Source: Flavobacteriales bacterium
GTDB taxonomy: Bacteria > Bacteroidota > Bacteroidia > Flavobacteriales_D > Sanyastnellaceae
NCBI GenBank assembly: GCA_015665315.1
Contig: JADFAK010000011.1
Location: 1-33,158 of the forward strand
Length of the DNA: 33,158 bases
Reading direction: 5' to 3'
Below are positions 2,946 through 21,800 of this stretch, piece after piece (position 1 is the stretch's first letter; each line of letters opens with the position of its first letter). A model generated the notes under the pieces. The model saw only the letters and a program-made list of their open reading frames with translations, was not told where the DNA came from and made no database searches. A program made the position numbers and the translations under genes.

Positions 2946-2981
2946 AAAGCAGCCCCTTCATCTTAAGTTGTGGGCTGTTTT
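2946..2981. terminator. Bidirectional rho-independent terminator
   Basis: The stem is AAAGCAGCCC (2946-2955) against GGGCTGTTTT (2972-2981), with one G:U pair and a loop of about 16 nt. The + strand continues with T-rich DNA; on the minus strand the stem is followed by TTTATTTTTT. It separates the convergent 123-aa gene (+) and relaxase gene (-), and overlaps the relaxase stop codon. Confidence 0.7.
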
Positions 2982-3783
2982 ATTCTTTGTCGGATTCTTT
3001 ATCGAGACTTTGTTCATTCGAATTTTCTCTTAGTTCGACTAATCTATTTTTTACTTTTTCATCTGACGGCGATTCAGGTGGATCTTGAATCCGATCAGTT
3101 TCGATTCCCAGTGTTTTAAACCTGTACTTCTTACCCCACTTTACTCCAGTTAACCTTCCATTTCGTTCGTAAAATGACATCCCTTTTTCGGCCAATTTTT
3201 CTTGCAGTGATTCTCGGGTAGAATCTCCTTTCAAAACCTCTTTAAGAAATTGTTTTAATTCCGTTTCTTTGTTGCGAACTGCGTCTTTTCCCGTGCGCAC
3301 AGAACTATGCTTTAACTCGGGGAATCTTTTTAAATGGTAATCTTGAAATTGCTCCCTTAAAGTTGAGAGTTCATCTTTTGACATTCTTAGACTTTTACCT
3401 TGAGTATCGGTTGCTCCACATATTACATGCAGATGAATATGCTCCTCCAGATGTGGAACAATGTAATAGAGCCCTTTTGGGTTTCTAAGTGAAATATATT
3501 TCTGGGCCATTTCTATGAGCTTTTCTCTATTGAGATATCTTGAATCTTCAGGTCCAAAAGAAATTATCTCGTGGCCAAGCACATTCGAATCCGACCTTCT
3601 AACATCCCGTTTCTCATCATTATTCAAAAACTCCCTTGCTAGTTCCTGATGGGTTTCTGAAAAAACATTGTGCTTGATTTCAAACCAAATATCCTTGTCT
3701 CTTGAACTCTTGTTCCTAGAAACATAAGCCAGCGCCTGAGAAAAACTTCGACTCTTTCTTGTCCTAATTTTAATGATGGCCAT
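2980..3783 (-). CDS. Mobilization relaxase (MOB/VirD2-type), 267 aa
   Basis: This is a transfer-initiating DNA relaxase, which nicks oriT and stays covalently bound to the 5' end. The N-terminal motif around Tyr20 ('ALAYVSR') fits the catalytic tyrosine region. A 'HEIISF' motif lies at 71-76, and the metal-binding histidine cluster is H111, H115, H117 and H119 ('HLEEHIHLHV'), the pattern of MOBP/VirD2-like and related Bacteroidota relaxases. At 267 aa it is short and consists essentially of the relaxase domain plus a charged tail, with no helicase or primase. The start overlaps the upstream accessory gene by 14 bp, indicating translational coupling. It is the last gene of the mobilization operon, ending at a strong terminator. 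Confidence 0.85.
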   Translation of the reverse strand: MAIIKIRTRKSRSFSQALAYVSRNKSSRDKDIWFEIKHNVFSETHQELAREFLNNDEKRDVRRSDSNVLGHEIISFGPEDSRYLNREKLIEMAQKYISLRNPKGLYYIVPHLEEHIHLHVICGATDTQGKSLRMSKDELSTLREQFQDYHLKRFPELKHSSVRTGKDAVRNKETELKQFLKEVLKGDSTRESLQEKLAEKGMSFYERNGRLTGVKWGKKYRFKTLGIETDRIQDPPESPSDEKVKNRLVELRENSNEQSLDKESDKE

Positions 3784-4246
3784 GCTTTTTTAACTCTTCA
3801 ATTGCTGCTAATAGCACTTCCTTGAGCTTGATGTGCTGAGTTCGGCAATACATCGATTTAATGGTGCTTACTTCTTTGATTACATTTTGTGTATTCAATG
3901 CTTCTTGCAAGAATTCAAGTAGTTTTTCTGAAGGCATCGAATGATGAATCACAATCGGAGTCCCCTCCAATTCTTTGTCCACTAGTTTTAATAGAAGCTT
4001 ACTCTTTGACTCTTCGTACAACTGTGCCCTTTCTTCAAAAGCTGAAAACCGTTTTTTAGGTAGCTTGATTGTCAATTCAAAAAACATATTCCTCAATTGC
4101 CTCTTGTATAGGCGTTGATATAACTTTCGGTATTCATCCTTAGCCTTTTGTAACATTTCTGCATCCGAATGTCTGTCCAACCCCCTTTGCCTCAAATAGG
4201 CTTTTTGAGTTGGGAAACCCTCCAATATGGAACTGGTCTTAGTCAT
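3770..4246 (-). CDS. MobC-like relaxosome accessory protein, 158 aa
   Basis: A small, highly charged, mostly helical protein (many Lys, Glu and Arg; Leu heptad-like spacing around residues 40-100) placed between the coupling ATPase and the relaxase. It overlaps the first by 8 bp and the second by 14 bp. Position and composition fit the accessory proteins that bind oriT and help the relaxase (MobC/MbpC-type). No diagnostic motif is visible, so the role is inferred mainly from context. It has no signal peptide or membrane segment. Confidence 0.6.
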   Translation of the reverse strand: MTKTSSILEGFPTQKAYLRQRGLDRHSDAEMLQKAKDEYRKLYQRLYKRQLRNMFFELTIKLPKKRFSAFEERAQLYEESKSKLLLKLVDKELEGTPIVIHHSMPSEKLLEFLQEALNTQNVIKEVSTIKSMYCRTQHIKLKEVLLAAIEELKKHGHH

Positions 4247-5630
4247 TTCTAATTTCAGTTGGGGCTTCTACAAAAGACTTTACATTCATTCTAGCTCTTC
4301 TCCTAAGCTTAAACTGCTTGAAATAGGGCTTGATCTTGTAGTTAATCAGGGGAAGGCTTCCATGGACAATCAAAACCCTTCCAGCCGGCAATTCACGCAC
4401 CTGAGAGGGTGTAAGTACAGGCATCACTTGACTAAATTTTTCGTCCACTTGCACTCGGTGGAATCCTGATAGTTTACTTAACTCTTGAGAAGTAGATAAC
4501 TGCTGGGCAGGATAAAATATCTTGGTCAAACAATTTGATAACAACGTCTCTGATTCAAGACCATATCTTTTTCGAAGTTGGGCTTCGTTCTGACACAACA
4601 ATAGAAGTGACAATCTATATTTTCTTGCAACACCAATGGAAGAAACAAGACTCGGTATCTGTTGTAGCACAGGCAATTCATCAAGAAGGAAATACACATC
4701 CTTTTCACCATTCTCTGGAATTCTCTTCATCAAATTTCCAAATGCCATATCAAAAAAGATGCTCAGTAGAACCGAGTTCTCACGGATTTCCGTGGAATTG
4801 GATTGCAAGAACACAACTACAGGTTTTTCTCTCAACTCAGTAAAACCAATGTCATTTGACCTCGTTATCTCTTCCATGTTCTCAGTAGATAACGGTGCGA
4901 GTGCAGCTTTGCAGGTAAAGAGAATAGAACTCTTCATTTTTTCACTTCCAATTTTGTGAAAGGTTTTGTACTCCTCAAAGCTTTCATCATCCAAATACTG
5001 CGCTGCCAACACGTCTACTTCATCTTCTCCAGATATAAATTTATTGACCAATGATTTTACTCGTTGGAAAGTTGGCTTCCCTTCTGCAAGTGCTATTTCG
5101 ACCAGAACTGACAAGATCATTTTCGACGACAAATTCCAAAATGGGTCGGAGGAACCATCTCCCAATGAACTATTTATTATAAGCCCGGTCATGCTCTGTA
5201 TCTCTGATTTACTTGTGGCAAGTGCTAGAGGATTGAAATGATCACTCTTTTCGGGATTACTGGGATTAACAATCACAGTTCTATACCCCTTGGATTCCAT
5301 GTACGCCTGGCAGATGTCCTCGAGTTCTCCTGAAGCATCATTTACCAGATATGAACGCGATCCATCTGCCGACAACAACTCAGGAATAATTATCCCTGAC
5401 GATTTCCCGCAGCCAGTACTCCCCTGAACGTAAGTATGCATCTGAGAAACTCGAGCTGATAATTTTTTCGCACCTATACTTTGCCCCCTGTTAAATCTCG
5501 AAAGAATTGCGCTAGGATGAGAAAAATTACTTCCTTCCCCTGTATTACGCTTTGGTGGTGAGAGTATTTCTGAGACTACGTCTCCGAAAAGACCAGTTAG
5601 GTTATATAAAATTGAAAGTATTGTCTTCAT
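4239..5630 (-). CDS. Type IV coupling protein (VirD4/TraG-like ATPase), short form, 463 aa
   Basis: This ATPase links the relaxosome to a transfer channel. The Walker A motif GSTGCGKSS is at residues 70-78 and Walker B 'VYFLLDE' at 312-318. 'LLLLCQNEAQL' (342-352) fits the conserved sensor region of TraG/TraD. Canonical VirD4 proteins are about 600 aa with two N-terminal membrane helices. Here only about 60 residues precede Walker A, with one weakly hydrophobic start (residues 1-20), so the membrane module is largely missing. The membrane proteins encoded just upstream could supply it (inference). ATG 5630 follows the hairpin-rich intergenic region. The gene is translationally coupled to the MobC-like gene. 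Confidence 0.85.
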   Translation of the reverse strand: MKTILSILYNLTGLFGDVVSEILSPPKRNTGEGSNFSHPSAILSRFNRGQSIGAKKLSARVSQMHTYVQGSTGCGKSSGIIIPELLSADGSRSYLVNDASGELEDICQAYMESKGYRTVIVNPSNPEKSDHFNPLALATSKSEIQSMTGLIINSSLGDGSSDPFWNLSSKMILSVLVEIALAEGKPTFQRVKSLVNKFISGEDEVDVLAAQYLDDESFEEYKTFHKIGSEKMKSSILFTCKAALAPLSTENMEEITRSNDIGFTELREKPVVVFLQSNSTEIRENSVLLSIFFDMAFGNLMKRIPENGEKDVYFLLDELPVLQQIPSLVSSIGVARKYRLSLLLLCQNEAQLRKRYGLESETLLSNCLTKIFYPAQQLSTSQELSKLSGFHRVQVDEKFSQVMPVLTPSQVRELPAGRVLIVHGSLPLINYKIKPYFKQFKLRRRARMNVKSFVEAPTEIRND

Positions 5631-8089: not shown

Positions 8090-8752
8090 TCAAATTAGGC
8101 CGTTTCTCACTGCCAGAACAACAAGTTCAATTACTGAATCAACATTGAATTTATGTTTCATCGATGCCAGTCGCTTTTCAACTGCGGAAAGGGTAATCGG
8201 AGTGCTTGAACCTGAAAATTCCTTTTCTATTGCAATCTGAGAATGTCCTTGACTTAACAAGGTCAAAATTACCCTATCAATCTGGTCTATTGATATTGAA
8301 GAGTAACTGGAAACTTTGATTCTAAGTGAAGGACTCACAAACCGCTCGCCACTTTCTACAGATTTTATCGCCTGAAGAAGCTCTGACAAACTCATTCTTC
8401 CCTTTAAAACATACGCATCAACCCTCAATTTATCGAATAGATACTTGACCATCGAAGAATTATCGACATTAGATAAGACAACAAATCCAGTGTATTTACA
8501 CTTATCCTTCACATTTTTTATCAATTCGTCTCCAGAATTAATCCCCCGAGGTGCTATTCCCCCTTTGATTACAAGATCAATGATCGCGAAATCAAAAGTC
8601 TCTGTATTCAATTTGAATTGGGCATCATACAGATTGTCCACGTGCACAATCTCGCAATCAGGATACTCTTTCTTCAAGGTGTTTTGAAGTCCGATCGCCA
8701 ACAAACCATGATCCTCTAAAAGTAAAAACCTGCGTTCACCCTTCTCGGTCAT
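8090..8752 (-). CDS. Response regulator, REC + LuxR/NarL-like C-terminal domain, 220 aa
   Basis: An N-terminal receiver domain has the acidic pair E13/D14, the probable phospho-acceptor Asp59 ('FAIIDL') and the conserved Lys in 'YVLKG' (about 117). The C-terminal part (about 150-220), 'ILTLLSQGHSQIAIEKE...LSAVEKRLASMKHKF', fits the helix-turn-helix layout of NarL/LuxR regulators, with an unusual small insertion ('SGSSTPIT') in the turn. The ATG overlaps the stop of the histidine-kinase gene (ATGA), so they are co-translated partners. The target genes are not known; the hairpin-rich intergenic region downstream is one possible site. Confidence 0.85.
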   Translation of the reverse strand: MTEKGERRFLLLEDHGLLAIGLQNTLKKEYPDCEIVHVDNLYDAQFKLNTETFDFAIIDLVIKGGIAPRGINSGDELIKNVKDKCKYTGFVVLSNVDNSSMVKYLFDKLRVDAYVLKGRMSLSELLQAIKSVESGERFVSPSLRIKVSSYSSISIDQIDRVILTLLSQGHSQIAIEKEFSGSSTPITLSAVEKRLASMKHKFNVDSVIELVVLAVRNGLI

Positions 8753-10455
8753 AGGCGTATTGTTAGTGAGTATTTATTATCAACAAGGTCAATCCAAACT
8801 GATCCGCCAAGCACTTTGATTCGATCTCGTAGAGAACTGTACTCCATTTCACCCTTAGCAGCAACTACATTTTTCACTGTGTTCACTGACCTAATTAATA
8901 CCTCATCCTCAATTTTCATTTCAAACTGAATTTCAGAGCTCAAATCGGCATGTTTCAGAAGGTTCGCAAAGACCTCCTTTATTATCGATATAATTTCAAA
9001 TTTTAAAGCTTCACTCAATTGATCCGCCAATTCAAGATCAATTAGTTGCCTATTGAGCACCTTTTTGGACATTAAGTCAAAATCACGAATAATCAGTTCG
9101 AGTTGCTCGATAAATGGTACTTTGTCAAAGTCGATTGCGAAATTATCATGGGAAATAGCCCTAATTTTTTCGTAAGTCCTTTCCAGATCATCGCTCACAG
9201 CTAACAATTCTTCGTTAGTAGCTCCATCGACCAAAGTATTAGAACGGTGAAGGCAGAAGAGCACATCATTGGCAATTTCATCGTGGATGATGCCGGCCAT
9301 TTTCTGGCGTTCATCTTGCCTTGCTTCGAGCATATTGATCGTTTTCTCCTTTTGATTTAACTCCCTCTCTTTGGCAATGCTTCGGATTATAAATACCAAT
9401 GCAACTATTAACAGAATAGCTAATACGGCCAATAGATTTCTAACAAGACGTTCGGATTGAATGAGCTTTGATTTGCTCTTAATTTCCTTTTCTAGAATCT
9501 GATTTTGTCGCTCTCTCTGCTCGCTTTCATATTGTATGGAAACAAATTTCGACTGCATTTGAGCAATACTTCGATCAAGGCTATCCTTCAATACGGTTGA
9601 ATAGAATAAATCTTCCGTATTTCTATTCATTCGCCCTTTCAATGCATACATTTCGATTAACGAAGGAATTTCACCCTGCTCAGAACATAAGCCCATTGCT
9701 TCTTCCAGCACAAAATTTGCTTGTTCTTGATCTCCGAAATAGTACAAGCATTCAGCCAAATGTAGGCTGCTCGAAACAACTCCTGGGACATTATTAAGGC
9801 TCTTTCGTATGCTTAAACAATTCATAAGATTTTCTCTTTCATCCGAGTGGCTTTTCAAATATCTAGTGTAGTAGAGATTATCCATCACCATTGCCGCATA
9901 TCGAGGAAACTGTATCGAATCTAAATACTGTCTGCTTTTGTCAAATGAATCGATTGCCGCTTCCAAATCACCTCTATTTCTATGCACGACACCTAGGTTG
10001 TTCAAAACGACCAACTTTTCAATATTACGCTGAGCCATCTCAATCGACTTGACGTGCAATTCAATGGCCTTCGACCATAGACCGTACTCATTGAAAGCAA
10101 TAGCCAAATTATTGTTCACTGATATTCTCTGATACCCTCCTATACTGTCTGGCATGTATCGAAGCGCTTCAATAGCAAATTTTTCTACTCTATGAAAATC
10201 TTTAACATCAACGCACAGATTTGACATGTTCAGATAACATTGACAAACAGCCATAGAATCCCCTTCCAGCAGATAGTGTTCAGTCCCCTCGCTAAAAACT
10301 GCAAAAGATTCAACTACGTGCTGCTGGTTCAACAAACTCAATCCAGAATCAAGATAAGAAACAGGAGTAGATTCGGCCCCAATATTTTGACCGAACATCC
10401 CCCTTTGTACAAACAGAAACACACACAATACACCTAGGACGCAGAAAACTCTCAT
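8749..10455 (-). CDS. TPR-containing sensor histidine kinase, 568 aa
   Basis: ATG 10455 was preferred to an upstream in-frame start at 10497 because it begins a good signal peptide (MRVFCVLGVLCVFLFVQRGMFGQ). A periplasmic sensor of tetratricopeptide-like repeats (about residues 30-290) follows, then a coiled coil, one membrane helix (about 345-366), a dimerisation/phospho-acceptor region with 'GIIHDEIANDVL' (HisKA_3-like, His near 393), and an ATPase domain. The N-box 'EVFANLLKHA' is present, but the usual DxGxG loop is missing (replaced by 'SVNTVKN'), while 'LRDRIKVLGGSV' near the end fits the GL/R..LGG region. ATP binding may therefore be altered. It is coupled to the response regulator by a 4-bp overlap. 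Confidence 0.85.
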   Translation of the reverse strand: MRVFCVLGVLCVFLFVQRGMFGQNIGAESTPVSYLDSGLSLLNQQHVVESFAVFSEGTEHYLLEGDSMAVCQCYLNMSNLCVDVKDFHRVEKFAIEALRYMPDSIGGYQRISVNNNLAIAFNEYGLWSKAIELHVKSIEMAQRNIEKLVVLNNLGVVHRNRGDLEAAIDSFDKSRQYLDSIQFPRYAAMVMDNLYYTRYLKSHSDERENLMNCLSIRKSLNNVPGVVSSSLHLAECLYYFGDQEQANFVLEEAMGLCSEQGEIPSLIEMYALKGRMNRNTEDLFYSTVLKDSLDRSIAQMQSKFVSIQYESEQRERQNQILEKEIKSKSKLIQSERLVRNLLAVLAILLIVALVFIIRSIAKERELNQKEKTINMLEARQDERQKMAGIIHDEIANDVLFCLHRSNTLVDGATNEELLAVSDDLERTYEKIRAISHDNFAIDFDKVPFIEQLELIIRDFDLMSKKVLNRQLIDLELADQLSEALKFEIISIIKEVFANLLKHADLSSEIQFEMKIEDEVLIRSVNTVKNVVAAKGEMEYSSLRDRIKVLGGSVWIDLVDNKYSLTIRL

Positions 10456-10469
10456 AATTCCAATAACAC

Positions 10470-10498
10470 TTGACAAACAGAAGTTTACATGATACAAT
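10470..10498 (+). promoter_or_regulatory. Sigma-70-like promoter for the 94-aa gene
   Basis: TTGACA (10470-10475), a 17-bp spacer, then TACAAT (10493-10498), 28 bp before the ATG at 10527. This is nearly the enterobacterial consensus, unlike the Bacteroidota-type TAnnTTTG boxes found elsewhere in the window. It overlaps the 5' leader of the divergent histidine-kinase gene. Confidence 0.55.
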
Positions 10499-10526: not shown

Positions 10527-10811
10527 ATGAATAAGACAGATTTAATCAACGTTTTAAGTATTGTAAGATTAACTGAGGATTGTGTTAACTTACCTTTGGA
10601 AGAAGTCCGTTCAGAATTCACTGCTCTTGGATTTCCTGTTAAATTTCAGCAATTCCCAAAAAAGGGAGTTCAGAAATACATTGCTGTTTATTTTGATAGA
10701 CCCCGCAGACCTCTTTGGCAATTGCACATTTCTGAAAAAGAATTTGCAATTCGTCTCGAAAAACTCTTCTCTATTGTAGAAGGATTCGATTGGGTACGTC
10801 TACGAAATTGA
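10527..10811 (+). CDS. Small hypothetical protein, 94 aa
   Basis: A compact soluble ORF on the + strand between two leftward operons. It has its own promoter-like sequence upstream and a strong terminator starting 13 bp after its stop, so it is probably a real single-gene unit. The middle ('KGVQKYIAVYFDRPRRPLWQLHIS') looks like two beta strands with basic and aromatic residues, flanked by helices. There is no signal peptide, membrane segment or recognised family. Its position, divergent from the sensor kinase and convergent with the end of the kinase/PP2C/VWA operon, would allow a regulatory or accessory role for either, but nothing in the sequence proves it. Confidence 0.65.
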   Translation: MNKTDLINVLSIVRLTEDCVNLPLEEVRSEFTALGFPVKFQQFPKKGVQKYIAVYFDRPRRPLWQLHISEKEFAIRLEKLFSIVEGFDWVRLRN

Positions 10812-10823
10812 AGATTCTATTTT

Positions 10824-10850
10824 GACCGCATACTTTATGCGGTCGTTTTT
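10824..10850 (+). terminator. Rho-independent terminator of the 94-aa gene
   Basis: A perfect 9-bp stem, GACCGCATA (10824-10832) and TATGCGGTC (10836-10844), with a 3-nt loop, followed by GTTTTT. It lies against the stop codon of the convergent MYG1-like gene. On the minus strand the stem is followed by A-rich DNA, so it works in the + direction only. Confidence 0.85.
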
Positions 10851-12291
10851 ATTTGGTCAATCTTTGCAATAAACTAGCAATACTCTTCATGTCAATTTCA
10901 CTTTGCACAACATGCTGATGAGCCGCCCCTCCATTCAATATATAGGGTGCATATCGTCCGGTCTTCATATTGCGCACCACGTGCCACTGGCCTTGTTCTC
11001 TGCTGCACAACAAATCCACCAAGTTCTCCCACAGATCTTGATCTATTTTTGTACCCTTGAAAAGAGCCGACACACACTTAAAACTATCTCTGATTAAAAC
11101 GAATCCATACCCGTCATTCAAAACTTTTAAAGCAGAACCTAAAGGGCGATTCCCTGCTATCATGCTAGGTGTTGGCTCTGCTTCTATTAACATCAGCCCT
11201 TTTTGGTTTCCTGGCAGCCTCATCCCAGGAATTACTGCGAAATTTCCAGAATAAACACCATATACTGATTGATAAACACCATCTTTTTTGTCTTTGAAAA
11301 AATCTGAGAGCCCCGCCAAAAGTTCCAAATAGCAGACTTGACCATGATAAATAATCTCCCAAAAATGCATCATTATTAATCGAGCAATCTGTTCACCCCA
11401 AGCTACTTCAAGTGAAACACATACTTTTCCAAGTAGCAACTGTTGCGACCCTCTGCTTAATCGAGCCTCTGAGCAAACCACTTTCTGGTTGTGGTACGAG
11501 TTCTTCATCCAAGACAAGACTTTCGAAAAAGACGGCTCTCCTTTCAAAGCGGTATGATCCGCAAAATACTTTAAGGAAGCAACAACACTCCTTTTAATCT
11601 CTTCTGAGTTTTCCAATTTATCATTGCTGTTAACCATACAAAATGCAACAGCGCTAATAGAGGCGTCCATGAGAGACTTCTTCCATTCTGCCGTTAACCA
11701 TTCTTGATACCGCTCATTGGTCCTCGAATTTTCAAATGTCAATCTAACTTGGTGGGCTGTCTTAATAATGTTTCCTATATGCTGCGCGTGTGCCCCTCCT
11801 TTGGCATCGATCTCATTTACTTCATTCAAAAGCTGCTTTAGTGGCCAACGCAATTCCCCTAGATTTAAATCTTGAGCGACAAGTTGACTACAAGAATAGG
11901 CTTGCCTTCCACCATTTTGGACATGCTCATCAAAAAGAATCAATGGATTAACTCCTGAAGACACTGCAGATCCAAGCCCAAACACGGCCGCATTCGGCCA
12001 ATATGCCTGACACAGCAAATCATTTCCTTTTGTTTGTATCCCCATTTCCATAAAATCAATATCTAACTTATGTGAGGGTAGGCAACTTCTGAACAAAAGA
12101 TCTGCAAAATACTCATCAAGATGAGGATGGGTGTGAGAAATTGTTCTATCCAATTTTACCAAGGAAACTGGTATTTTGGGCATGCCTTTTTTATTCCTCA
12201 ATAGATATCTCAGATACTGAGAGCTCTTTTTGCTCAGACTATGAATAATTCCACCGTTTGAGTCAATATAATCTTGGTTAAACCGTATCAT
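10849..12291 (-). CDS. Divergent MYG1/DHH-like putative phosphoesterase, 480 aa
   Basis: Three motifs follow the order seen in MYG1 (UPF0160) members of the DHH phosphoesterase superfamily. 'HTHPHLDEYFADLLF' (53-67) matches the N-terminal H..FHxDEALA metal site. 'LFDEHVQNGGRQAYSCSQLVAQ' (119-140) matches the DHH motif and the following Ser-rich segment. 'NEIDAKGGAH' (159-168) matches the ELDAIDNG region. The histidine pair reads DEH instead of DHH, and the usual DxGG strand reads 'FGLGS', so one metal-binding Asp seems lost. The C-terminal half (about 190-480) contains 'GSALKVLNDGYGFVLI' and 'QWHVVRNMKTGRYA'. It is the last gene of the five-gene operon, overlapping PP2C by 14 bp. MYG1 relatives act on RNA; activity here is inference. 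Confidence 0.55.
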   Translation of the reverse strand: MIRFNQDYIDSNGGIIHSLSKKSSQYLRYLLRNKKGMPKIPVSLVKLDRTISHTHPHLDEYFADLLFRSCLPSHKLDIDFMEMGIQTKGNDLLCQAYWPNAAVFGLGSAVSSGVNPLILFDEHVQNGGRQAYSCSQLVAQDLNLGELRWPLKQLLNEVNEIDAKGGAHAQHIGNIIKTAHQVRLTFENSRTNERYQEWLTAEWKKSLMDASISAVAFCMVNSNDKLENSEEIKRSVVASLKYFADHTALKGEPSFSKVLSWMKNSYHNQKVVCSEARLSRGSQQLLLGKVCVSLEVAWGEQIARLIMMHFWEIIYHGQVCYLELLAGLSDFFKDKKDGVYQSVYGVYSGNFAVIPGMRLPGNQKGLMLIEAEPTPSMIAGNRPLGSALKVLNDGYGFVLIRDSFKCVSALFKGTKIDQDLWENLVDLLCSREQGQWHVVRNMKTGRYAPYILNGGAAHQHVVQSEIDMKSIASLLQRLTK

Positions 12292-13144
12292 CTTGTTTAC
12301 TATTTCTGCGTAGAAGAATCATCGAAGCATCATCACTAGGCCAATTAAATGGCTTGGTTGCTCCCCACTCGTTTAAAACTGTTTTGTGAAATTCCTTTGT
12401 TAAATCAACAATCCCATTTACTGGAAAACGATGCTTGTTTATCATGTTTTGGAGTTCAAGCCTGTCCCAAACAGGTGAAAATCCGTCTGTCGCCAAACAC
12501 AGCGAATTCAAGTTAGCTACGTCTCCAAAGGCGTTCAATGTAAACACTCCTGCCTGGGAATACAAAGGATTGTAATACTCTCCATCTTGATCTGACAAGT
12601 CAATATCCTTATTGTTAATTTGTATTTGCCCATCTCCACAACTGAAGATCATGAACTCTTTTTCAGCGACGGCAAAACACATGACAGTAGTAGAAAACAA
12701 ATTACGCAACGCCGATGCATCGGACCTTCCTTGCGTGCTAAAAACACGCAGTAAAGGATTAATACTCTTACTCAACTGCTTCTCTATCTCAGAAAGCAAG
12801 CGAAGCATCCCCAGTTCTCCGAGCCTATATTTTCTAGTGGTCAGCTTCCGCGCCACTGTAGAAACGATAACTCTTGAAAACAAAACCGCCGCAAATTCAT
12901 TTCGAGAAAAATCACTAATCAAACTGGCCTCCCCGCTCGTACATCCATCACACACCACACCAACAATGACTTTGTCATCAAAATATACATTCAAAGTATC
13001 TTGATTGTTTAACCCAACTTGGGCATGTCCAAATCCCTGACGCGTTATAGCGCCGACTGTAAACGGATGAGTCGTTTTCTCGGTAAATCTCAAATCACCA
13101 AAATCATTCTTGAATGGTGCCTTCTCCCAGTGTTGGATTCTCAT
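12278..13144 (-). CDS. PP2C-type Ser/Thr phosphatase of the TerY-P kind, 288 aa
   Basis: This metal-dependent phosphatase probably reverses the adjacent kinase. The motifs are in PP2C order: 'NNQDTL' (46-51, Asp49), 'VVCDGCTSGEASL' (63-75, metal-binding Asp66/Gly67), 'FSCGDGQI' (167-173), 'LATDGFSP' (218-224, Asp220) and 'PSDDASMILLRR' (269-280, Asp271/272). The 'DGCTSG' form is typical of phosphatases found beside VWA proteins and Asp/Asn-variant kinases. All key acidic residues are present, so it should be active. It overlaps the kinase stop by 4 bp (ATGA) and the MYG1-like gene by 14 bp. It has no membrane segment and is cytoplasmic. Confidence 0.85.
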   Translation of the reverse strand: MRIQHWEKAPFKNDFGDLRFTEKTTHPFTVGAITRQGFGHAQVGLNNQDTLNVYFDDKVIVGVVCDGCTSGEASLISDFSRNEFAAVLFSRVIVSTVARKLTTRKYRLGELGMLRLLSEIEKQLSKSINPLLRVFSTQGRSDASALRNLFSTTVMCFAVAEKEFMIFSCGDGQIQINNKDIDLSDQDGEYYNPLYSQAGVFTLNAFGDVANLNSLCLATDGFSPVWDRLELQNMINKHRFPVNGIVDLTKEFHKTVLNEWGATKPFNWPSDDASMILLRRNSKQDDTV

Positions 13145-14184
13145 TCTATTTGAAGATTGTACTGATTAATAAAAAAGGTTAAACTCTTTGGATCTGTTTT
13201 TTCAGATGCCTTTGAATGTCCTCGTTTTGGCTTTATATGCCTGAGGCGGACTGGTCTTTGAATCGCTTTGCGCCTCGTGTCTGCTTTCGAAGAAAAATAC
13301 GGTCGATTGCTTGAACAAAAAATTGACTCGAAAAAGGAATACAACCGTGGCTCAACTTGTTTTATCTCAGATATTCTGGTTAGTGCTTGCTTCACCATTG
13401 GATCTTCGAACAATGCATGGCCTTCTACACGATTTAATCCTGTTGTCGCAAACCTCATTAAGTTCACGTTTTGAGTTAATGCAGTGGATGTAGAAACCAT
13501 TGGCTTCACTGGCATTTGAAATGGATGATATCCTATCATCAACTCAAAGCACATTATTGAAAGGATAAAAATATCGCTGCGCTTGCTGAATTCAGATTTC
13601 CCATCCTCGTTCTTTCTCAATCTTAGAATCTCAGGACAATTGTACTCCTCTCTTGCTAAACCACAGGAAGGCATTTCACCTACCTTAGCTGAATCAACAT
13701 CCATAACACAGACTTTTCCAGCACCATTGATCTGTATGTTTTCAGGGTTCACATCTCCGAGAATGATTTTGTTTTCGTGCAATAATTTCAAGATTGAGAA
13801 TACTTCTTCGATCAAATCAATTGCCTCTTTGTCGTTCTTCAGGTGAAGGAATTTCTTCGACTTCAAGTCGTACAGAACACTATTAAACAACTTCAAATCA
13901 GACATTTTTTTCATAGAATATCCCACTACCTTTCGATCTTCATCAACCGAATAACCAGGCTTCTCAGGCAACGCCAATTGTGTAGAATAACTTGTTAAAT
14001 CAATTGCTCTTGCCTTATCACAAAGGGCTAGTATTTTTTGATACTTCAATTCACTTTGATTGGATGGGAACAAGAGCTTAAAACATTTTGATTCATTTAA
14101 TTTAAAAACGCTTCCCTCTCCTCCTCTACCTATCTCGGTGAGATTAGTGGTGTCTAACTCTGTATTGTCAAAAAGAAACTTCAT
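13141..14184 (-). CDS. Ser/Thr protein kinase of the TerY-P kind, 347 aa
   Basis: A eukaryotic-like kinase with glycine loop 'GRGGEGSVFKL' (19-29), probable catalytic Lys36, catalytic loop 'ILGDVNPENI' (141-150; Asp144 and Asn149 present, HRD replaced by LGD), metal loop 'MDVDSA' (161-166, DFG replaced by DVD), 'YNCPEIL' in place of APE (181-187), and 'RSDIFILSIMCFELMIGYHPF' (202-222). The GDxNPxN and DxDS forms are characteristic of kinases in VWA/PP2C/kinase triads. The C-terminal tail (about 300-347) is basic, without a recognised domain. The gene starts 1 bp after the VWA gene stop and overlaps PP2C. Likely substrates are the VWA protein or the MYG1-like protein (inference). Confidence 0.85.
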   Translation of the reverse strand: MKFLFDNTELDTTNLTEIGRGGEGSVFKLNESKCFKLLFPSNQSELKYQKILALCDKARAIDLTSYSTQLALPEKPGYSVDEDRKVVGYSMKKMSDLKLFNSVLYDLKSKKFLHLKNDKEAIDLIEEVFSILKLLHENKIILGDVNPENIQINGAGKVCVMDVDSAKVGEMPSCGLAREEYNCPEILRLRKNEDGKSEFSKRSDIFILSIMCFELMIGYHPFQMPVKPMVSTSTALTQNVNLMRFATTGLNRVEGHALFEDPMVKQALTRISEIKQVEPRLYSFFESIFCSSNRPYFSSKADTRRKAIQRPVRLRHIKPKRGHSKASEKTDPKSLTFFINQYNLQIE

Positions 14185-14185
14185 C

Positions 14186-15367
14186 TTAAACTGTATTAAT
14201 TACCTGTTGCGACCAGAGGTCAAATGCTCGTCTAATTCCCTTTGGATCATTCTGTTCAATTGAGATGTACTCTGTAAAGCCAAGCTCTTCTCGCAACTTT
14301 CGCAATCGATCAACAGTGAGTTCTTTGTTAGTTAATCCAATTAGTACAGCGCTCTTTAAATCACCTTCCTGCTTCAAACCTTCAATAAGGCGCTTGATCT
14401 GGGCAGGCGAATTTTCTGGCTTGCTATAGGTATCTTCACCGTCTGTTATCACAGCTACAGTGATAAGAGGTTTTCTTGTGTTTTCTTCTTTCAGGAAATT
14501 GGCTTCTACATTGAGAAGGGACAATGATTCAAAAAGTGAGTCATACAGAGCCGTCATGCTTCGAGGCTGGTATGTTGCATTGCTTAACTCTACAACCTTA
14601 TCTTTTCCCTTTGCATCTAACCGAGTCAACGCATTTAGCATTTTGCTTTCATGATCGAACGAATGTTGCATAACAAAAAGTGCATTTTGCTCACATATCA
14701 TACTTTCTCGCAAGGCAGTAAGCGCCAAATTCTGTCTTTGGATCACTATGTCTCTATAAAAGAGCATAGAACCGGACGCATCAACAAGTAGTGCTGCGTA
14801 GACTGGGTTCCTCATTAAACCTTCTTTTGATTCAGGTTTGTAGTCTCTGTTAACCGTCACTAAGTTTTCAAAACCCTCTTTACTGATTACTTCATCCTCA
14901 AGTAATTTGGCAAATGTGTGCACAGCGCTCGAAGCAATACTATTCACGTATTGTCGAATTTTGATTCCTTTTAATTTGCTGCCTGATTCTTGCTCATACC
15001 ATTTAACAACTTCGACAAGCTGAAATCGACTTATATCAACAAATGGTTTAGCTACAGTCGTGTGAAAATGCTTTCTACTATTGGCTCTTTGACGTAAGTC
15101 ATTCAAGTGACTCTTAACCTGAACATCAATAAGATTCTTTTGCTCGAAAAATCGAATGAGCTGAAAGAAGGTTCTTCTTTCTTTCGGCAAAGCATTTCTT
15201 TTTCTAAAGTACATTGCCCGGCAAAGCATTTCAGAGCACACTCCCGCCTGCAACAGACTGTCTTTGAATGGTATTTTTTTGTTACCCATTGCTTGATGCC
15301 ATGAGGCTATTGCTTCTTTTTCGAATGCCTCTACCTCTTTTTTAACATTTGACTTCATCCTGTACAT
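14186..15367 (-). CDS. DUF4145/HEPN-like + VWA (TerY-like) protein, 393 aa
   Basis: ATG 15367 was chosen; the longer reading needs a TTG inside the upstream gene. The N-terminal helical region (about 11-126) ends in 'LRQRANSRKHFH' (Arg92 to His100), like the LRxxgNxxxH signature of DUF4145 and close to the RX4-6H motif of HEPN RNases. The second half (about 185-393) is a VWA domain with a complete metal site: 'DASGS' (196-200), Thr272 in 'RSMTALYDS', and 'TDGED' (309-313). VWA proteins of this type act as Mg-dependent scaffolds next to kinase and PP2C genes. The gap to the sigma-54 activator gene is 10 bp. Whether the HEPN-like part is a nuclease or a structural module is open. Confidence 0.75.
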   Translation of the reverse strand: MYRMKSNVKKEVEAFEKEAIASWHQAMGNKKIPFKDSLLQAGVCSEMLCRAMYFRKRNALPKERRTFFQLIRFFEQKNLIDVQVKSHLNDLRQRANSRKHFHTTVAKPFVDISRFQLVEVVKWYEQESGSKLKGIKIRQYVNSIASSAVHTFAKLLEDEVISKEGFENLVTVNRDYKPESKEGLMRNPVYAALLVDASGSMLFYRDIVIQRQNLALTALRESMICEQNALFVMQHSFDHESKMLNALTRLDAKGKDKVVELSNATYQPRSMTALYDSLFESLSLLNVEANFLKEENTRKPLITVAVITDGEDTYSKPENSPAQIKRLIEGLKQEGDLKSAVLIGLTNKELTVDRLRKLREELGFTEYISIEQNDPKGIRRAFDLWSQQVINTV

Positions 15368-15377
15368 TTTTGTTTGG

Positions 15378-16796
15378 TTAAATCTCTCGATCAATTATTT
15401 TTCTCAACGTGGGAGGGCTAATGCCAAGGATGGAAGCTGCCTTAGTCTTATTTCCAGAACACATTTCTAGAACCTGTACAACATGATGAAACTTTACATC
15501 TTCCAAAGCCATTGATATGCTCGACCTAGATACATTTTTAAACCTGTCGGGTAAGTCTGAAAGCGTTACCTCGGATTCGCACATGGCATAGAACCGCCTG
15601 AAGAGGTTTTCCGCTTCCCTAAAATTGCCCGGAAACGGATGTTCCAAGAGCCTGTCAACAACCTTATCTGAAAGATGCATCATACTTCTGTTCCAGGAAA
15701 TACTGATCTGTCTAGAAATGTGTTCAAACATCTCTAGCCTTTCCGCCTTTGTGAATTCCCGTACAGGGATAGTAACAATCTCCACTACACTTAAGCGATA
15801 GAAAAGATCAGCTCGAAACAATCCCAGCTCTACTAGTTGCCACAAGTTCTTCAATGAGCCACACACCACGCGAACATCAATGCTATATTCCTTAGTTGTC
15901 CCTATCGGCATAACAGTTCGCTCTTGTAAAACGCGTAACAGTGTTTTCTGCAATCGCTGCGAAATGTCTCCTATTTCATCTAAGAAAAGTACTCCTCCAT
16001 CTGCTTCACGAAATACTCCCTCTTGATCATCAATGGCACCAGTAAAGGCCCCTTTGACATGACCGAAAAGTCTGCTTTCTAATAAGTCATCCCCCATAGC
16101 CGCGCAGTTAAGCGCGATAAATTTTTTATTTCTCCTAAAAGAATTTTTGTGAATCCGGCGAGCGATTATTTCCTTGCCCGTTCCACTTTCACCAAACAAC
16201 ATAACAGTTGTGCTATTCGAACTTTGAGCTACCCTATCTACATTAAGGAACAACTCTTTTAGCTCGGCAGGAATAAAAAGGGTTCCCTCTTCCTCCTTGA
16301 CGTGGTTTTCAAGAATTGCCAAACCGTGAGCTTGTGTCCATAAATCTGGATCAACGTAGATTTTTTGAAATCTTGTGCGTTTCGAGGGAGGCCGAACCTG
16401 AAATAGTCTAGTATTTGTGAATTCAGTTCCTAGTATGTACCAAGCCATTTGCATCGCAGGTGTACCTGGAGAGATATAAATGTCTAATTCATCTTTAGTA
16501 TATTGGGCGAGTAAATCTCTTGATTTTGCCACAATCTCTTGAACGGATATCACATCCTCAAGAACAACAGACTTCAGCTGAACTTCAGAAGAATAAACTT
16601 CCTTCAGATGATCTGCTAACACTTCACCAGCTGTATCTGTCCCTTCTTGAAGTGAAGAAAGCAAGATGTGCTTGTCATAGAAAGCCTCATTGTTGTATAA
16701 ATCACAATGTGTTCCTTCTGGATTCACCCTCCGTCCCCCTGACTCAGAGGTCAGAAAATCATGTTTCGTTGCTATCCAAGAAACCAATAGTCTCAT
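15378..16796 (-). CDS. Sigma-54-dependent activator with N-terminal CARF-like sensor (RtcR-like), 472 aa
   Basis: ATG 16796 was chosen over an in-frame TTG 6 bp upstream. Residues 1-150 look like a Rossmann-type ligand sensor: start 'RLLVSWIATKHDF' and the loop 'YISPGTPAMQ' (107-116), the (S/G)GT..M pattern of CARF domains in RtcR-like regulators. An AAA+ domain follows, with Walker A 'GESGTGKE' (202-209), the intact sigma-54 contact loop GAFTGA (249-254) and Walker B 'LFLDEIGD' (270-277). A Fis-type helix-turn-helix ends it ('NKTKAASILGISPPTLRK', 449-466). It should activate sigma-54 promoters on binding a nucleotide or RNA-derived ligand. It is first in the five-gene operon. No sigma-54 promoter is visible nearby. 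Confidence 0.85.
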   Translation of the reverse strand: MRLLVSWIATKHDFLTSESGGRRVNPEGTHCDLYNNEAFYDKHILLSSLQEGTDTAGEVLADHLKEVYSSEVQLKSVVLEDVISVQEIVAKSRDLLAQYTKDELDIYISPGTPAMQMAWYILGTEFTNTRLFQVRPPSKRTRFQKIYVDPDLWTQAHGLAILENHVKEEEGTLFIPAELKELFLNVDRVAQSSNSTTVMLFGESGTGKEIIARRIHKNSFRRNKKFIALNCAAMGDDLLESRLFGHVKGAFTGAIDDQEGVFREADGGVLFLDEIGDISQRLQKTLLRVLQERTVMPIGTTKEYSIDVRVVCGSLKNLWQLVELGLFRADLFYRLSVVEIVTIPVREFTKAERLEMFEHISRQISISWNRSMMHLSDKVVDRLLEHPFPGNFREAENLFRRFYAMCESEVTLSDLPDRFKNVSRSSISMALEDVKFHHVVQVLEMCSGNKTKAASILGISPPTLRKIIDREI

Positions 16797-16938
16797 TGAC
16801 AATATTTTTTACACTCATATTAAACTCTTTCCGAATCCAAAGTTGGAATCCCTGATTTTGCTAGTGTGCCAATCAAGGAATGTCTCTTGCCCTCTAAAGA
16901 CACAAGATTCAACACCTACTTGATAAATCACAATAGCT

Positions 16939-17747: not shown

Positions 17748-18310
17748 AATTTTCTAGCAGTTCTGGGTTGATGTTGTTGGGAAGCAGTTCGTGTAGTTTA
17801 TCTGTGCGAATTTTCTTTGGATTGGAAAGGATCAAAGTGGTGGTTACAGACCTCAATGTTTTATTGGTTCGCTTCCCAACTTTGAAATCGATCACTTCCT
17901 TGCTGTCTTTTCTTATTGCGTATGCTATCCAAGTAAGGTTTCTTTTGTAGCACTATAAAAGTGCAAAGTTCATCTATTTGGTATTCTTTGACTTGGTAAA
18001 TTATTGGTCTCGGCAATCTGCTGGAGATTGATTGAATCCTGGACAAAACCGTATTCTTCGAAATCCCGAGGATTCTCGAAATACTTCGAATGCCTACCCC
18101 TTCTTTTACGAGCGTTTTGATCTGCCTATTTGTTGATGGCCTATATGATACGTACGAATACCTTGTTAGAAAAGTTCTACCACAGGACTTGCATTTGTAA
18201 CGTTGTTTGCCCTTCTTAGTTTTGCCGTATTTCACTAGTTGAATTTCATCAACACATTTGATACACGTATTACTAGTTTCTTGCATTACAGATCGATTTT
18301 CGACCTGCAA
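17708..18310 (-). mobile_element. Mosaic of IS66-like end and IS1-like remnant
   Basis: From 17708 the + strand reads GTACCCCCCCCGATCAAC, close to the start of IS66-family terminal repeats (GTAA.CG.CCG..CAAC..ACC). On the minus strand the last 22 codons before the stop, 'HELLPNNINPELLENF..', look like an IS66 TnpC C-terminus. Right of about 17794 the minus strand encodes an IS1-type transposase. Two different elements are thus joined, and both are incomplete. The right boundary is not defined. Confidence 0.5.
17725..18286 (-). pseudogene. IS1-family transposase (InsA/InsB-like), frameshifted and truncated
   Basis: ATG 18286 starts 'MQETSNTCIKCVDEIQLVKY', with the InsA-type zinc finger (CIKC near the start, CKSC about 30 residues later) and the HTH 'GIRSISRILGISKNTVLSRI'. 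The InsB-like catalytic part begins 'YQIDELCTFI'. An extra T near 'TTACTTGGATA' shifts the frame. In the next frame the expected 'YWIAYAIRKDSKEVIDFKVG' and 'KRTNKTLRSVTTTLIL' continue. The shift lies inside the DDE domain, not at the InsA/InsB junction, so it is probably a disabling mutation and not programmed frameshifting. The IS1 similarity stops at about 17794, where an IS66-like tail takes over. Confidence 0.7.
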
Positions 18311-18837: not shown

Positions 18838-21800
18838 TTAATTTCCAAATAGGGAGGTATGTCCCCATTGATAAGATCCGCCAACTCTCAGTTTGGCTAC
18901 TTTAGAAGCCCTCATTATGCTGGAATTCATACCTCCAGAGGGTGAAGCCCAACCGCCGGAGGTAGTGTAGTTTTTTCCTTTAAATTGGAATAGAGAACCG
19001 CTTCCATTTCTATCGCCACCTCTTGTGGCTGATAATGGGCCGATTCCGACGTTAGACGACCAGTCTCTTCCTTCAAACATTCCTATGGTAAATTCTTTAT
19101 CACCCTCTTCCTTAACTATTCCAGCATTAAGACCGAGACCCAAATCAACTCCTACTCCTCCTGCAATTCTAAAATACCAACTATCTGAGCCATTTGAATC
19201 ATAAACTTTACCGACTGTTACGGAAGCACCCATTACGGGGATGAAAGATGCGGTTAATTCAACAAAGTGACCGTCAGTTAAAGGCTCTCCTGTTTTCTCA
19301 TCTATCAATTCTGGGGCCTCTGAATATGAATTTTCAGGCTGCTTTTCTTTTACCGGAGCGACACTTTCTCCATACTCACTAATCCATCTCTGATTGTGCA
19401 TAAAGTGACCGGCTTCACCTTTTGATTTAGCATCATTGTATTCCTTAAGAAATTTATCTTTATTTTCATCAGAAACTATGAAGGTAGCATTATTGCCATC
19501 TTTAGTATCGGCTAGGAGCGAGCCATCCGCACCTTCATATTTAGTGTCCAATAGTCCTGTGGGGTCAATCTTAGTCACTGGATTCCCACTTACATAATTA
19601 AATGCCGACATTGATATTCTTTCTATAGCCAACGGATCCAAACTCAAAAACCTCCCGATATCACTATCATAAAACCTAGCCCCACGGTAATCCAGTTCAG
19701 TCTCCTCATCTCTTTCATGATGAGTTGAGAAATACTTTTCTTTTGGACCAAAAGGACTCACATATCGTCGAAGTATTTTGGCGTAAGGATAATAATCAGC
19801 CATTTCTTCAACTACTCTTGAAACGCCACCTTCTAGTCCATTAGGTCCATATGTACATGAAGTATATGGTTTAAAAACCACTCTTGTATTTCCAAGATGA
19901 TCATGTACGTAGAAGCTTGGTTTTGGTAGACCTTTATCCACGAGATAGGTGTATTCACCAAAGACTGTAGGACTTCTGTAAGTTGGATCTCCAGTACCTC
20001 CACCCAACAAATCATCCACTGAAATACTCAATGTTCCTTGCCCCGTTCTATCAATTGCAATAAGCTGTGTCCTATTTCTGATCAATAGAGTAGAAGTAAG
20101 TACAAAATTGAAGTTAGGATTTCCATCAACTACATCTTGGTAAAATGACTCTAAGTATACCACTTCATCCGTACCATCAAGTAAACCACGAACAAGGTTC
20201 ATAGGATAGGTTGCTGAAGCAAGATGTGCGATGATTTGTTGAGTTACTTCGTCCTCCTGGTCAACCCTGGCATCAGTTGCTAGTTGAGTTAGGTAGAATG
20301 ATGGTGCCTGTTCAGTATTCGGCTGAATTTTGGCAAAACGATTATTGCCAAAAGTATAATATGTCCATGTGGTCTGATCATTGCCGTCCATGTTGTTGTG
20401 ACTGAGGACTGCTATATCTCTACCAAATGCATCTTTCCAATATATATCAGTGAGCATAATGCTGTTCAAGCCATTTTTAAACTCCTTGGCGATTCTTAAA
20501 TCTGCATCGTCATAATAGTAATGAGCCTGTTCTACTTTGTCGAGGTCATCTTGTGCGTCATATGTGTCTTTTTCAACTACCACAGGCAAATTAGCTCTTC
20601 CATAAGTTGTCCCCACTAATTTTCTGTAGCTATCGGTAAGTAAGTTTCCTGATCTGTCGTAGGTGTAGGTTCTATCACCAGTTTCAGCCAACCCGTAGTT
20701 GTTAATAGATGTAAGAATATTGCTTTCTTCAAAGTAGTCGTACATAAACTTGGACCTATACACACTGGCTTCGTCATCAGCGAATTCCATATTTATCCAG
20801 CGTTCTAACATAGTAAAGTTACCAATTCTATCAAAGTGATATTTTACATCTCCATTGTGCTGAGCCCCGTAAGTAGTTTGTATGTCTATTACTGTGTTAC
20901 CCACAAGAGCGTCAGCAGTTGTCAGCCTATTTAAATCATCATACTGGTATCCAAACATCGTTGCCTCAGAAAACATTTCGTTAGCACCAACATAACCAAG
21001 AACTGCCGCATCATAATCAATATCTCCATTTACAGGAGTAATGTCGAAATTTCCAGTCTCAATATTGGTGTTTCCAAGGTTGTATTCAGAAAGAATTCCG
21101 TTGATGTTTCCATTCCAATTGTTGTCATGACCGATGTTCTGATATTCAGAGTCAGTGCTCCAATTGTTATCATAGAACATGTTTTGGGTGTACAGAGTTC
21201 CTTCTATAACATTGAGTCTATCTCTGTCATCGTATAAATATTCGGTACTGTGAACCTCAATTGGTTCGTCGTCACATTCATCGTAAAAGTAGTCAGTCTT
21301 TGTAACCAGACCCAGCGCATCATTGTAGGTGTACTGTAGCAGCTTATTGCCTTGGTCTTGACTATTGTCAAGATTTACAAAAACCGAAGTCAATCTTCCA
21401 AAACCATCGTAATCAAAGTGGTACTGTAGATCTAAGTTTTGGTCTGAATTAAAATCGATGTTTTGGGTCAATAGATTACCAGCAAAATCGTAATCGGGGT
21501 AATCAATTCTCATCAAGATTCCTTTGTCGGTCGCTGTAATTCCATTGTGGTTGAATTGCTGTAATTCCCACTTGATTTGACCTTCATCATTGTACGAGTA
21601 ATACTTTACTTGAATTTCATCAGGATCATAAACAAGGGATTCTTCAGGGACATGAAAAGCACGTGAGTAACTTAGTTTACCAATCATGTTTTCTCTCAAG
21701 TTCTCCAAATAGTCTTCTTGAATTACAAATTCGTCGTCGAGTGGATAGAAATGAGGATTTGCTAAGCCAGAGACCACTAGTGTCCCGTCATAACGAGCAT

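Follow-up and report, generated by a model that had tools for sequence, protein, structure and literature searches.

The window, by which we mean the whole stretch of 33,158 nucleotides analysed, carries five minus-strand genes in the order RtcR-like regulator, VWA protein, kinase, PP2C phosphatase and P0001. We tentatively read them, with a probability of about 0.4, as a TerY-P-like cassette, inducible and serving in defence or stress, in which P0001 would be the orphan output protein, most likely a strongly diverged protein of the DHH type. With the start of the VWA gene taken at 15367, the genes are separated by gaps of 10 and 1 nt and then overlap by 4 and 14 nt. The sequence-only reading had placed P0001 behind the kinase, phosphatase and VWA genes, where it indeed lies, but had overlooked that the operon is led by an RtcR-like CARF-AAA-HTH activator. 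The five genes are as follows.

15378–16802, minus strand: RtcR_PspF2-like sigma-54 activator (CARF, AAA+, HTH), translated probably from the ATG at 16796 to the stop at 15380–15378; GAFTGA present.
14186–15394, minus strand: VWA protein, translated probably from the ATG at 15367; phrog_7371 at E = 1.9e-9 over residues 198–345, and alignment with YegL/TerY-type VWA proteins.
13141–14184, minus strand: Ser/Thr protein kinase of 347 aa; Pkinase at E = 1.1e-12; GRGGEG, GDVNPEN and MDVDS.
12278–13144, minus strand: PP2C phosphatase; PP2C_2 at E = 4.3e-12; metal motifs QD, DG, GDG, TDG and DD kept.
10849–12291, minus strand: P0001, an orphan protein with a MYG1/DHH-like motif order; ORF intact, family and relative searches without a convincing match.

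The regulator shares the CARF-AAA-HTH architecture of the RtcR_PspF2 regulators found near defence loci, and matches their PADLOC model PDLC01995 over its full length (E = 1.1e-112, residues 3–471 on profile positions 1–476 of 481). It also matches Sigma54_activat (E = 5.9e-60) and is 36–39% identical to three plasmid copies. An assignment as the canonical RtcR of RNA repair was rejected, as the NCBIfam model NF038308 gave 246.7 bits, under its cut-off of 650, and RtcB found no match in the genome. The same genome encodes sigma-54 (PF04552, E = 1.8e-52). No sigma-54 site with two or fewer mismatches stands just upstream of the regulator, and the sigma-54 promoter pattern was found 27 times, as compared to 23 expected by chance.

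For comparison we collected 13 loci from a CARF scan of genome_contigs, three plasmid loci and three genomes of the phylum, the neighbours in the last group being compared solely with the proteins of the window. Of the 13 RtcR_PspF2-type loci that have at least one annotated or scanned neighbour, the scanned neighbours being our own choice, ten, in Bacteroidota, adjoin defence-family genes, and these are listed here by what lies beside the regulator.

L004: CRISPR III-B.
L005: BREX.
L006: AAA ATPase and type I RM.
L099: DdmD-like protein.
L102: phospholipase matching PADLOC 'Effector' models (of the CBASS type).
L103: ATPase best matched by NsnB/AriA models, and a type I methylase.
L105: CD-NTase and HORMA.
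L106 and L109: ATPases best matched by NsnB/AriA models.
L110: MkoA-like helicase.

No defence-family gene was found among the neighbours scanned in L098, L101 and L108, while L100 and L104 resemble L099 by ORF sizes only and the L107 stretch is incomplete. RtcR-like proteins unlinked to Rtc are reported often to adjoin RM systems (PMC4012209). The present regulator differs from the other RtcR_PspF2 loci searched in heading a kinase/phosphatase/VWA operon. Among the 13 genome_contigs loci, relatives of the kinase, PP2C or P0001 were absent at E 0.1, and VWA relatives occurred in L109, L110, L101 and, weakly, L106 (E = 0.047). In L101, L109 and L110 the VWA gene lies within 10 kb of the regulator, with no recognisable kinase or PP2C relative. 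All of the 395 phylum genomes matched the RtcR_PspF2 family, mostly on the AAA part; among the matches listed, with three candidates scored per genome, at least three reach profile position 1, and the regions of those three contain no triad relative. The regulator protein found itself and one partial match in 60 relatives, and a CARF alignment returned 126 stretches of viral_contigs, none of them a relative.

The three genes behind the regulator retain their active-site motifs in alignments, namely GDVN..N and D.DS in the kinase, the metal motifs in PP2C and the MIDAS residues in the VWA protein. The VWA protein consists of an N-terminal part of about 185 aa followed by the VWA domain with DxSGS..T..TDG. 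The N-terminal part matches DUF4145 at E = 0.01 with 16.3 bits, below the cut-off of 23.1, and contains an Rx5H-like stretch by eye. DUF4145 is a HEPN-like family, and it is with the HEPN motif that this stretch was compared.

The kinase is nearest to those of YegI/TerY-P-type triads. As in the TerY-P triad and E. coli YegL-PphC-YegI, adjacent genes encode a VWA protein, a PP2C phosphatase and a Ser/Thr kinase with their active-site motifs kept. The TerY-P kinase, however, has a C-terminal zinc ribbon, or an OB fold in a variant, whereas this kinase ends at 347 aa with no zinc ribbon, and the CPWC-type Cys pairs that mark YegI-type kinases are missing from its tail. Because it has no zinc-ribbon tail, we call the VWA-kinase-PP2C set 'TerY-P-like' by its sequence features and go no further. 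The operon also departs from these sets in its order (VWA-kinase-PP2C), in the long N-terminal part of the VWA protein, and in the added orphan fourth protein and RtcR-type regulator.

By tblastn, the kinase has relatives on 48 plasmid records, and YegI is among its relatives. Twelve of the 48 were opened and 11 were annotated: nine have both a VWA and a PP2C gene next to the kinase, one of them (L115) together with FtsK-like and CARF genes, and in the other two PP2C is the sole such neighbour, preceded in one case by a hypothetical gene. Searched on their own, the VWA protein at E 0.01 and PP2C at E 0.001 had no match on plasmids. In the 395 phylum genomes the VWA protein had five weak matches beyond its own, whose 1.5-kb flanks contain no kinase or PP2C relative. 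A second copy of the five-gene set was not found, so the joint function of the five genes rests on one locus. Kinase-PP2C-vWA sets have also been described elsewhere (PMC7159879). In the CoCoNuT systems of types II and III-A, RtcR homologues are reported to occur together with TerY-P genes (PMC11090510), and the present operon likewise joins an RtcR homologue to TerY-P-like genes. Unlike the CoCoNuTs, it has no McrB-type GTPase or helicase among the 20 ORFs, of 47 listed for the window, that were compared with Pfam.

The operon is likely to be an accessory, horizontally moved cassette. Base composition is flat, with no compositional jump, and the sister genome G395 matched 113 bases of a 15-kb query, so that it offers no empty site. 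The following ORFs lie on either side.

2980–3783: MobA/VirD2-like relaxase.
4239–5630: T4SS coupling protein.
17861–18310, minus strand, upstream of the operon: IS1-family transposase-like ORF (NF033558, 81.8 bits, cut-off 100).

The relaxase and the coupling protein (2980–5630) lie close to the operon and hint at a conjugative or mobilisable element.

P0001 is an intact ORF of 480 aa (10849–12291, minus strand), starting with the ATG at 12291. The order of an HxxxHxDE..A motif followed by DEH, with D59, D121, H123 and D162, had been picked out from the letters, and all of it is present. Motif I reads S52 H53 T54 H55 P56 H57 L58 D59 E60 Y61 F62 A63; its first His lies four residues before H57, as compared to five in MYG1, and the alignment needs a one-residue gap. 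The DHH-equivalent motif is F-D121-E122-H123, so the replacement of DHH by DEH at residues 121–123 agrees with the residue numbering. The reported loss of the motif-II Asp also stands, with G105 in its place, although the G105-L106-G107-S108 stretch occupies 105–108 rather than 106–109. For motif IV, announced as ELDAxDxG, D162 and the following Ala are there, but the sequence reads E160-I-D162-A163-K-G-G166 and the second Asp is absent. Counted from the ATG at 12291, the codons are as follows.

12112–12135, minus strand: motif I, H53-x-H55-x-H57-x-D59-E60.
11968–11979, minus strand: GLGS (105–108), in the motif-II Asp place by alignment.
11923–11931, minus strand: D121-E122-H123, DEH for DHH.
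11806–11808, minus strand: D162 of motif IV.

A pattern of these motifs (H.{3,4}H.D[ED]..A / D.H / D) occurred in 32 of 33 real MYG1 proteins, in 8 of 200,000 shuffled versions of P0001 and in none of the 521 further ORFs compared. A stricter pattern was found in no shuffle and also in none of the 33 MYG1 proteins, and a looser one in 28 of the 33 and in 35 of the 200,000 shuffled sequences. The motif order seldom arises by chance, but all three patterns were composed with knowledge of P0001, and a match of this kind could have turned up in many genes and families, so that the likeness to MYG1 is suggestive only.

To represent MYG1, a MYG1 motif pattern was used to draw 46 viral stretches (L052–L097, IMG/VR), in each of which the motif lies within an open reading frame. 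Thirteen proteins were excluded as truncated, duplicate or near-duplicate or, in some cases, for long or uncertain starts, and the remaining 33 were aligned; the resulting profile retrieves the PDB entries for MYG1 exonuclease. Besides viral contigs, MYG1 is present on 71 plasmid records, and PF03690 had no match in 296 genomes of the phylum. One of the proteins from the 46 viral stretches matches only one of 50,697 INPHARED phage records.

The profile search against MYG1 (UPF0160) that the sequence-only reading had proposed as a check left PF03690 unmatched by P0001 in the Pfam scan, even at E up to 1; all 33 aligned viral MYG1 proteins match it. The MYG1 identity that it had suggested was not supported: most of the profile comparisons placed P0001 inside the range of their controls, with the global profile score doing slightly better. 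Aligned by hhalign with the 33-member set, P0001 reached a probability of 0.3% and E = 0.21, and among the controls 38 of the 204 real ORFs and 32 of the 200 shuffles scored at least as high; the pairing set HLDE of P0001 on HADE, GLGS near DVGG, FDEH on FDHH and YSCSQLV on YSSAGLV. HMMER gave 3.0 bits against the MYG1 profile (E = 0.0035 for one sequence). Of its controls, 136 of the 180 real ORFs and 1255 of the 2000 shuffles obtained a score, and 10 of the real ORFs and 14 of the shuffles reached that of P0001. The gapless block score was matched in 710 of the 1000 shuffles and in 137 of the 274 real ORFs. The global profile score was reached by 8, 4, 15, 2 and 26 of 400 shuffles as five gap settings were tried in turn; with the first of these, the z of P0001 was 2.59, against a maximum of 2.58 among 70 real proteins. 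In a forced MAFFT alignment P0001 shares 8 or 9 of the 20 conserved MYG1 residues; shuffles do equally well, and these columns were discarded as evidence.

The 33 MYG1 proteins share 13 invariant residues (T6, H7, G9, F11, H12, D14, A18, R33, D48, H62, H63, D111 and F149). With one gap, P0001 keeps H7, H12, D14, A18, H63 and D111, six of 13 and an ordinary number for shuffles in a forced alignment, and lacks T6, G9, F11, R33, D48, H62 and F149. With these seven invariants missing and PF03690 unmatched, P0001 was rejected as a member of MYG1/UPF0160. What it shares with that exonuclease family is the order of the H-x-D-E..A, D-x-H and D motifs and, by eye, a partial alignment of a C-terminal stretch; it differs in the change of the motif-II Asp to Gly and of DHH to DEH, in a motif I one residue shorter, and in its length of 480 aa, as compared to about 244–366 aa for the aligned MYG1 proteins. 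On the features compared, the likeness to MYG1 is therefore suggestive, while membership fails.

P0001 is an orphan within the collections searched. No convincing family was found in Pfam, PADLOC, NCBIfam or PHROGs, where the one Pfam match was to STAR_dimer at E = 0.087, below the cut-off, and no PDB sequence matched at E up to 10. Exact 8-mers drew 44 stretches from genome_contigs, and a search of viral_contigs drew four, with no relative in either. There was no match on plasmids at E 0.01 (72,556 records) or in phages at E 0.1 (50,697 records), and whole genomes of the phylum (395), family (114) and order (339), which are overlapping sets, returned its own genome only. In a literature search, nothing was found joining RtcR with MYG1 or the MYG1 family with phage defence, and UPF0160 with phage gave only unrelated-looking matches.

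The single-sequence model of P0001 was unusable (pLDDT 32.7). A model guided by the MYG1 alignment had a mean pLDDT of 55.5, with low confidence over much of the chain; its 10-residue means were 76–89 for residues 41–70 and 72–91 for residues 121–170. Foldseek of this model against the PDB placed RecJ-Cdc45 (7bih, E = 0.015) on top, followed by other DHH proteins, none at E of 0.001 or lower, and the best viral structural match was a DHH phosphohydrolase (E = 1.2e-4). By VIA-align the best match was PggH (Z 9.8, rmsd 5.5, 263 aligned), and the matches included NrN with SAM-AMP or SAH-AMP (9lqa, 9lqb, 9lqc) at Z 6.5–6.8, a range in which, as for any Z below 8, a match may reflect merely a common arrangement. 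The 50 matches listed, which by title and family are mostly DHH-type or Cdc45-holding replisome entries (a few titles, 6mtz and 3dev, name no family), were drawn from the Foldseek matches of the same model, and the absence of other folds among them means little. The guided model thus looks DHH-like, but circularly so: since its guiding alignment consists of DHH-type proteins, it cannot prove that P0001 is one.

How P0001 is to be read turns on these results. That it is no DHH protein at all, its motifs being a chance likeness on another, perhaps unknown, fold, is a serious contender that we place somewhat short of even odds: it would explain the lack of a convincing family match, the hhalign, HMMER, block and forced-alignment scores within their controls and the failed single-sequence fold, but it must attribute to chance a motif order seen in so few shuffles and in no other ORF, a global profile score that 2–26 of 400 shuffles reach and, at one gap setting, none of 70 real proteins, and the C-terminal stretch that also lines up with MYG1 by eye. 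Cdc45 is a non-cutting relative of RecJ that acts as a scaffold or sensor. A degenerate DHH protein of that kind, which no longer cuts, would fit the absent motif-II Asp (G105), the DEH in place of DHH and the resemblance of the guided model to RecJ-Cdc45; we consider it unlikely, as several of the motif places still hold a His, Glu or Asp that could bind metal, and the model is circular.

NrN destroys SAM-AMP in some type III CRISPR systems. P0001 might by analogy be the off-switch of the same cassette, a DHH/NrN-like phosphodiesterase destroying the ligand of the CARF protein. The CARF gene leading the operon, the NrN structures among the matches of the guided model and published work on SAM-AMP and NrN all point this way, but the model is circular with Z under 8, no messenger synthase was found among the window ORFs scanned, and three usual DHH motif positions are altered (Asp to H57, Asp to G105 and His to E122, under the metal-ligand scheme of DHH proteins), and we judge this off-switch improbable. 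For the operon as a whole, a TerY-P-like stress response, for instance to metal, carried as mobile-element cargo and serving no antiphage defence, seems doubtful. TerY-P has been linked to tellurite resistance (PMC11090510), and a relaxase and a coupling protein lie in the window; in 10 of the 13 loci, however, regulators like this one stand beside genes of defence families.

In the preferred reading, the five genes would act as one inducible cassette. Judging from its family, the RtcR_PspF2-type CARF protein may sense an oligonucleotide- or RNA-end-type ligand arising from infection or RNA damage, and with sigma-54 would switch on a target promoter. The VWA protein, kinase and PP2C, whose gene content and motifs resemble TerY-P/YegL-PphC-YegI, would form a phosphorylation switch, and P0001, last in the operon and overlapping the PP2C gene, would be the partner specific to it. 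Its phosphorylation state or its binding by the VWA protein could control its action on RNA or nucleotide ligands, and a second effector may lie in the VWA protein, in its DUF4145/HEPN-like part. The loss of the motif-II Asp and the change of the DHH His to Glu in P0001 would predict altered or lost metal catalysis. Its substrate, catalysis and role are ones that we infer, and we do not claim an established enzyme. A stronger version is a long shot in our estimation: the operon would be a new type of defence, in which a CARF-sigma-54 sensor induces a VWA/kinase/PP2C phosphoswitch whose dedicated target would be a protein derived from MYG1/DHH, its metal site remodelled to H-x-D-E and D-E-H with no motif-II Asp. 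If that were true, a nuclease fold would be under Ser/Thr phosphorylation control. TerY-P-like triads recur across bacteria, and the passages of the descriptions cited above name no phosphorylation targets. An operon that joins the triad to a ligand-sensing sigma-54 activator and one dedicated partner is a small, testable set, and if P0001 is the substrate, the output of a triad would become measurable. P0001 itself illustrates either the extent to which a set of DHH-like motifs can diverge or the risk of being misled by a likeness of motifs.

The neighbouring ORFs offer several further observations. Past the P0001 stop, a 94-aa ORF (10527–10811, plus strand) of no convincing family converges with the operon and is followed by this element.

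10823–10845, no strand assigned: terminator-like hairpin just past the P0001 stop, with a T-run that reads for the convergent plus-strand ORF.

Next to the operon, 8090–10497 (minus strand) encodes a TPR protein with a C-terminus that is histidine-kinase-like by eye, and a NarL-like response regulator. On the other side, a 3465-aa ORF (18838–29235, minus strand) has a weak RHS repeat match (E = 1.6e-8).
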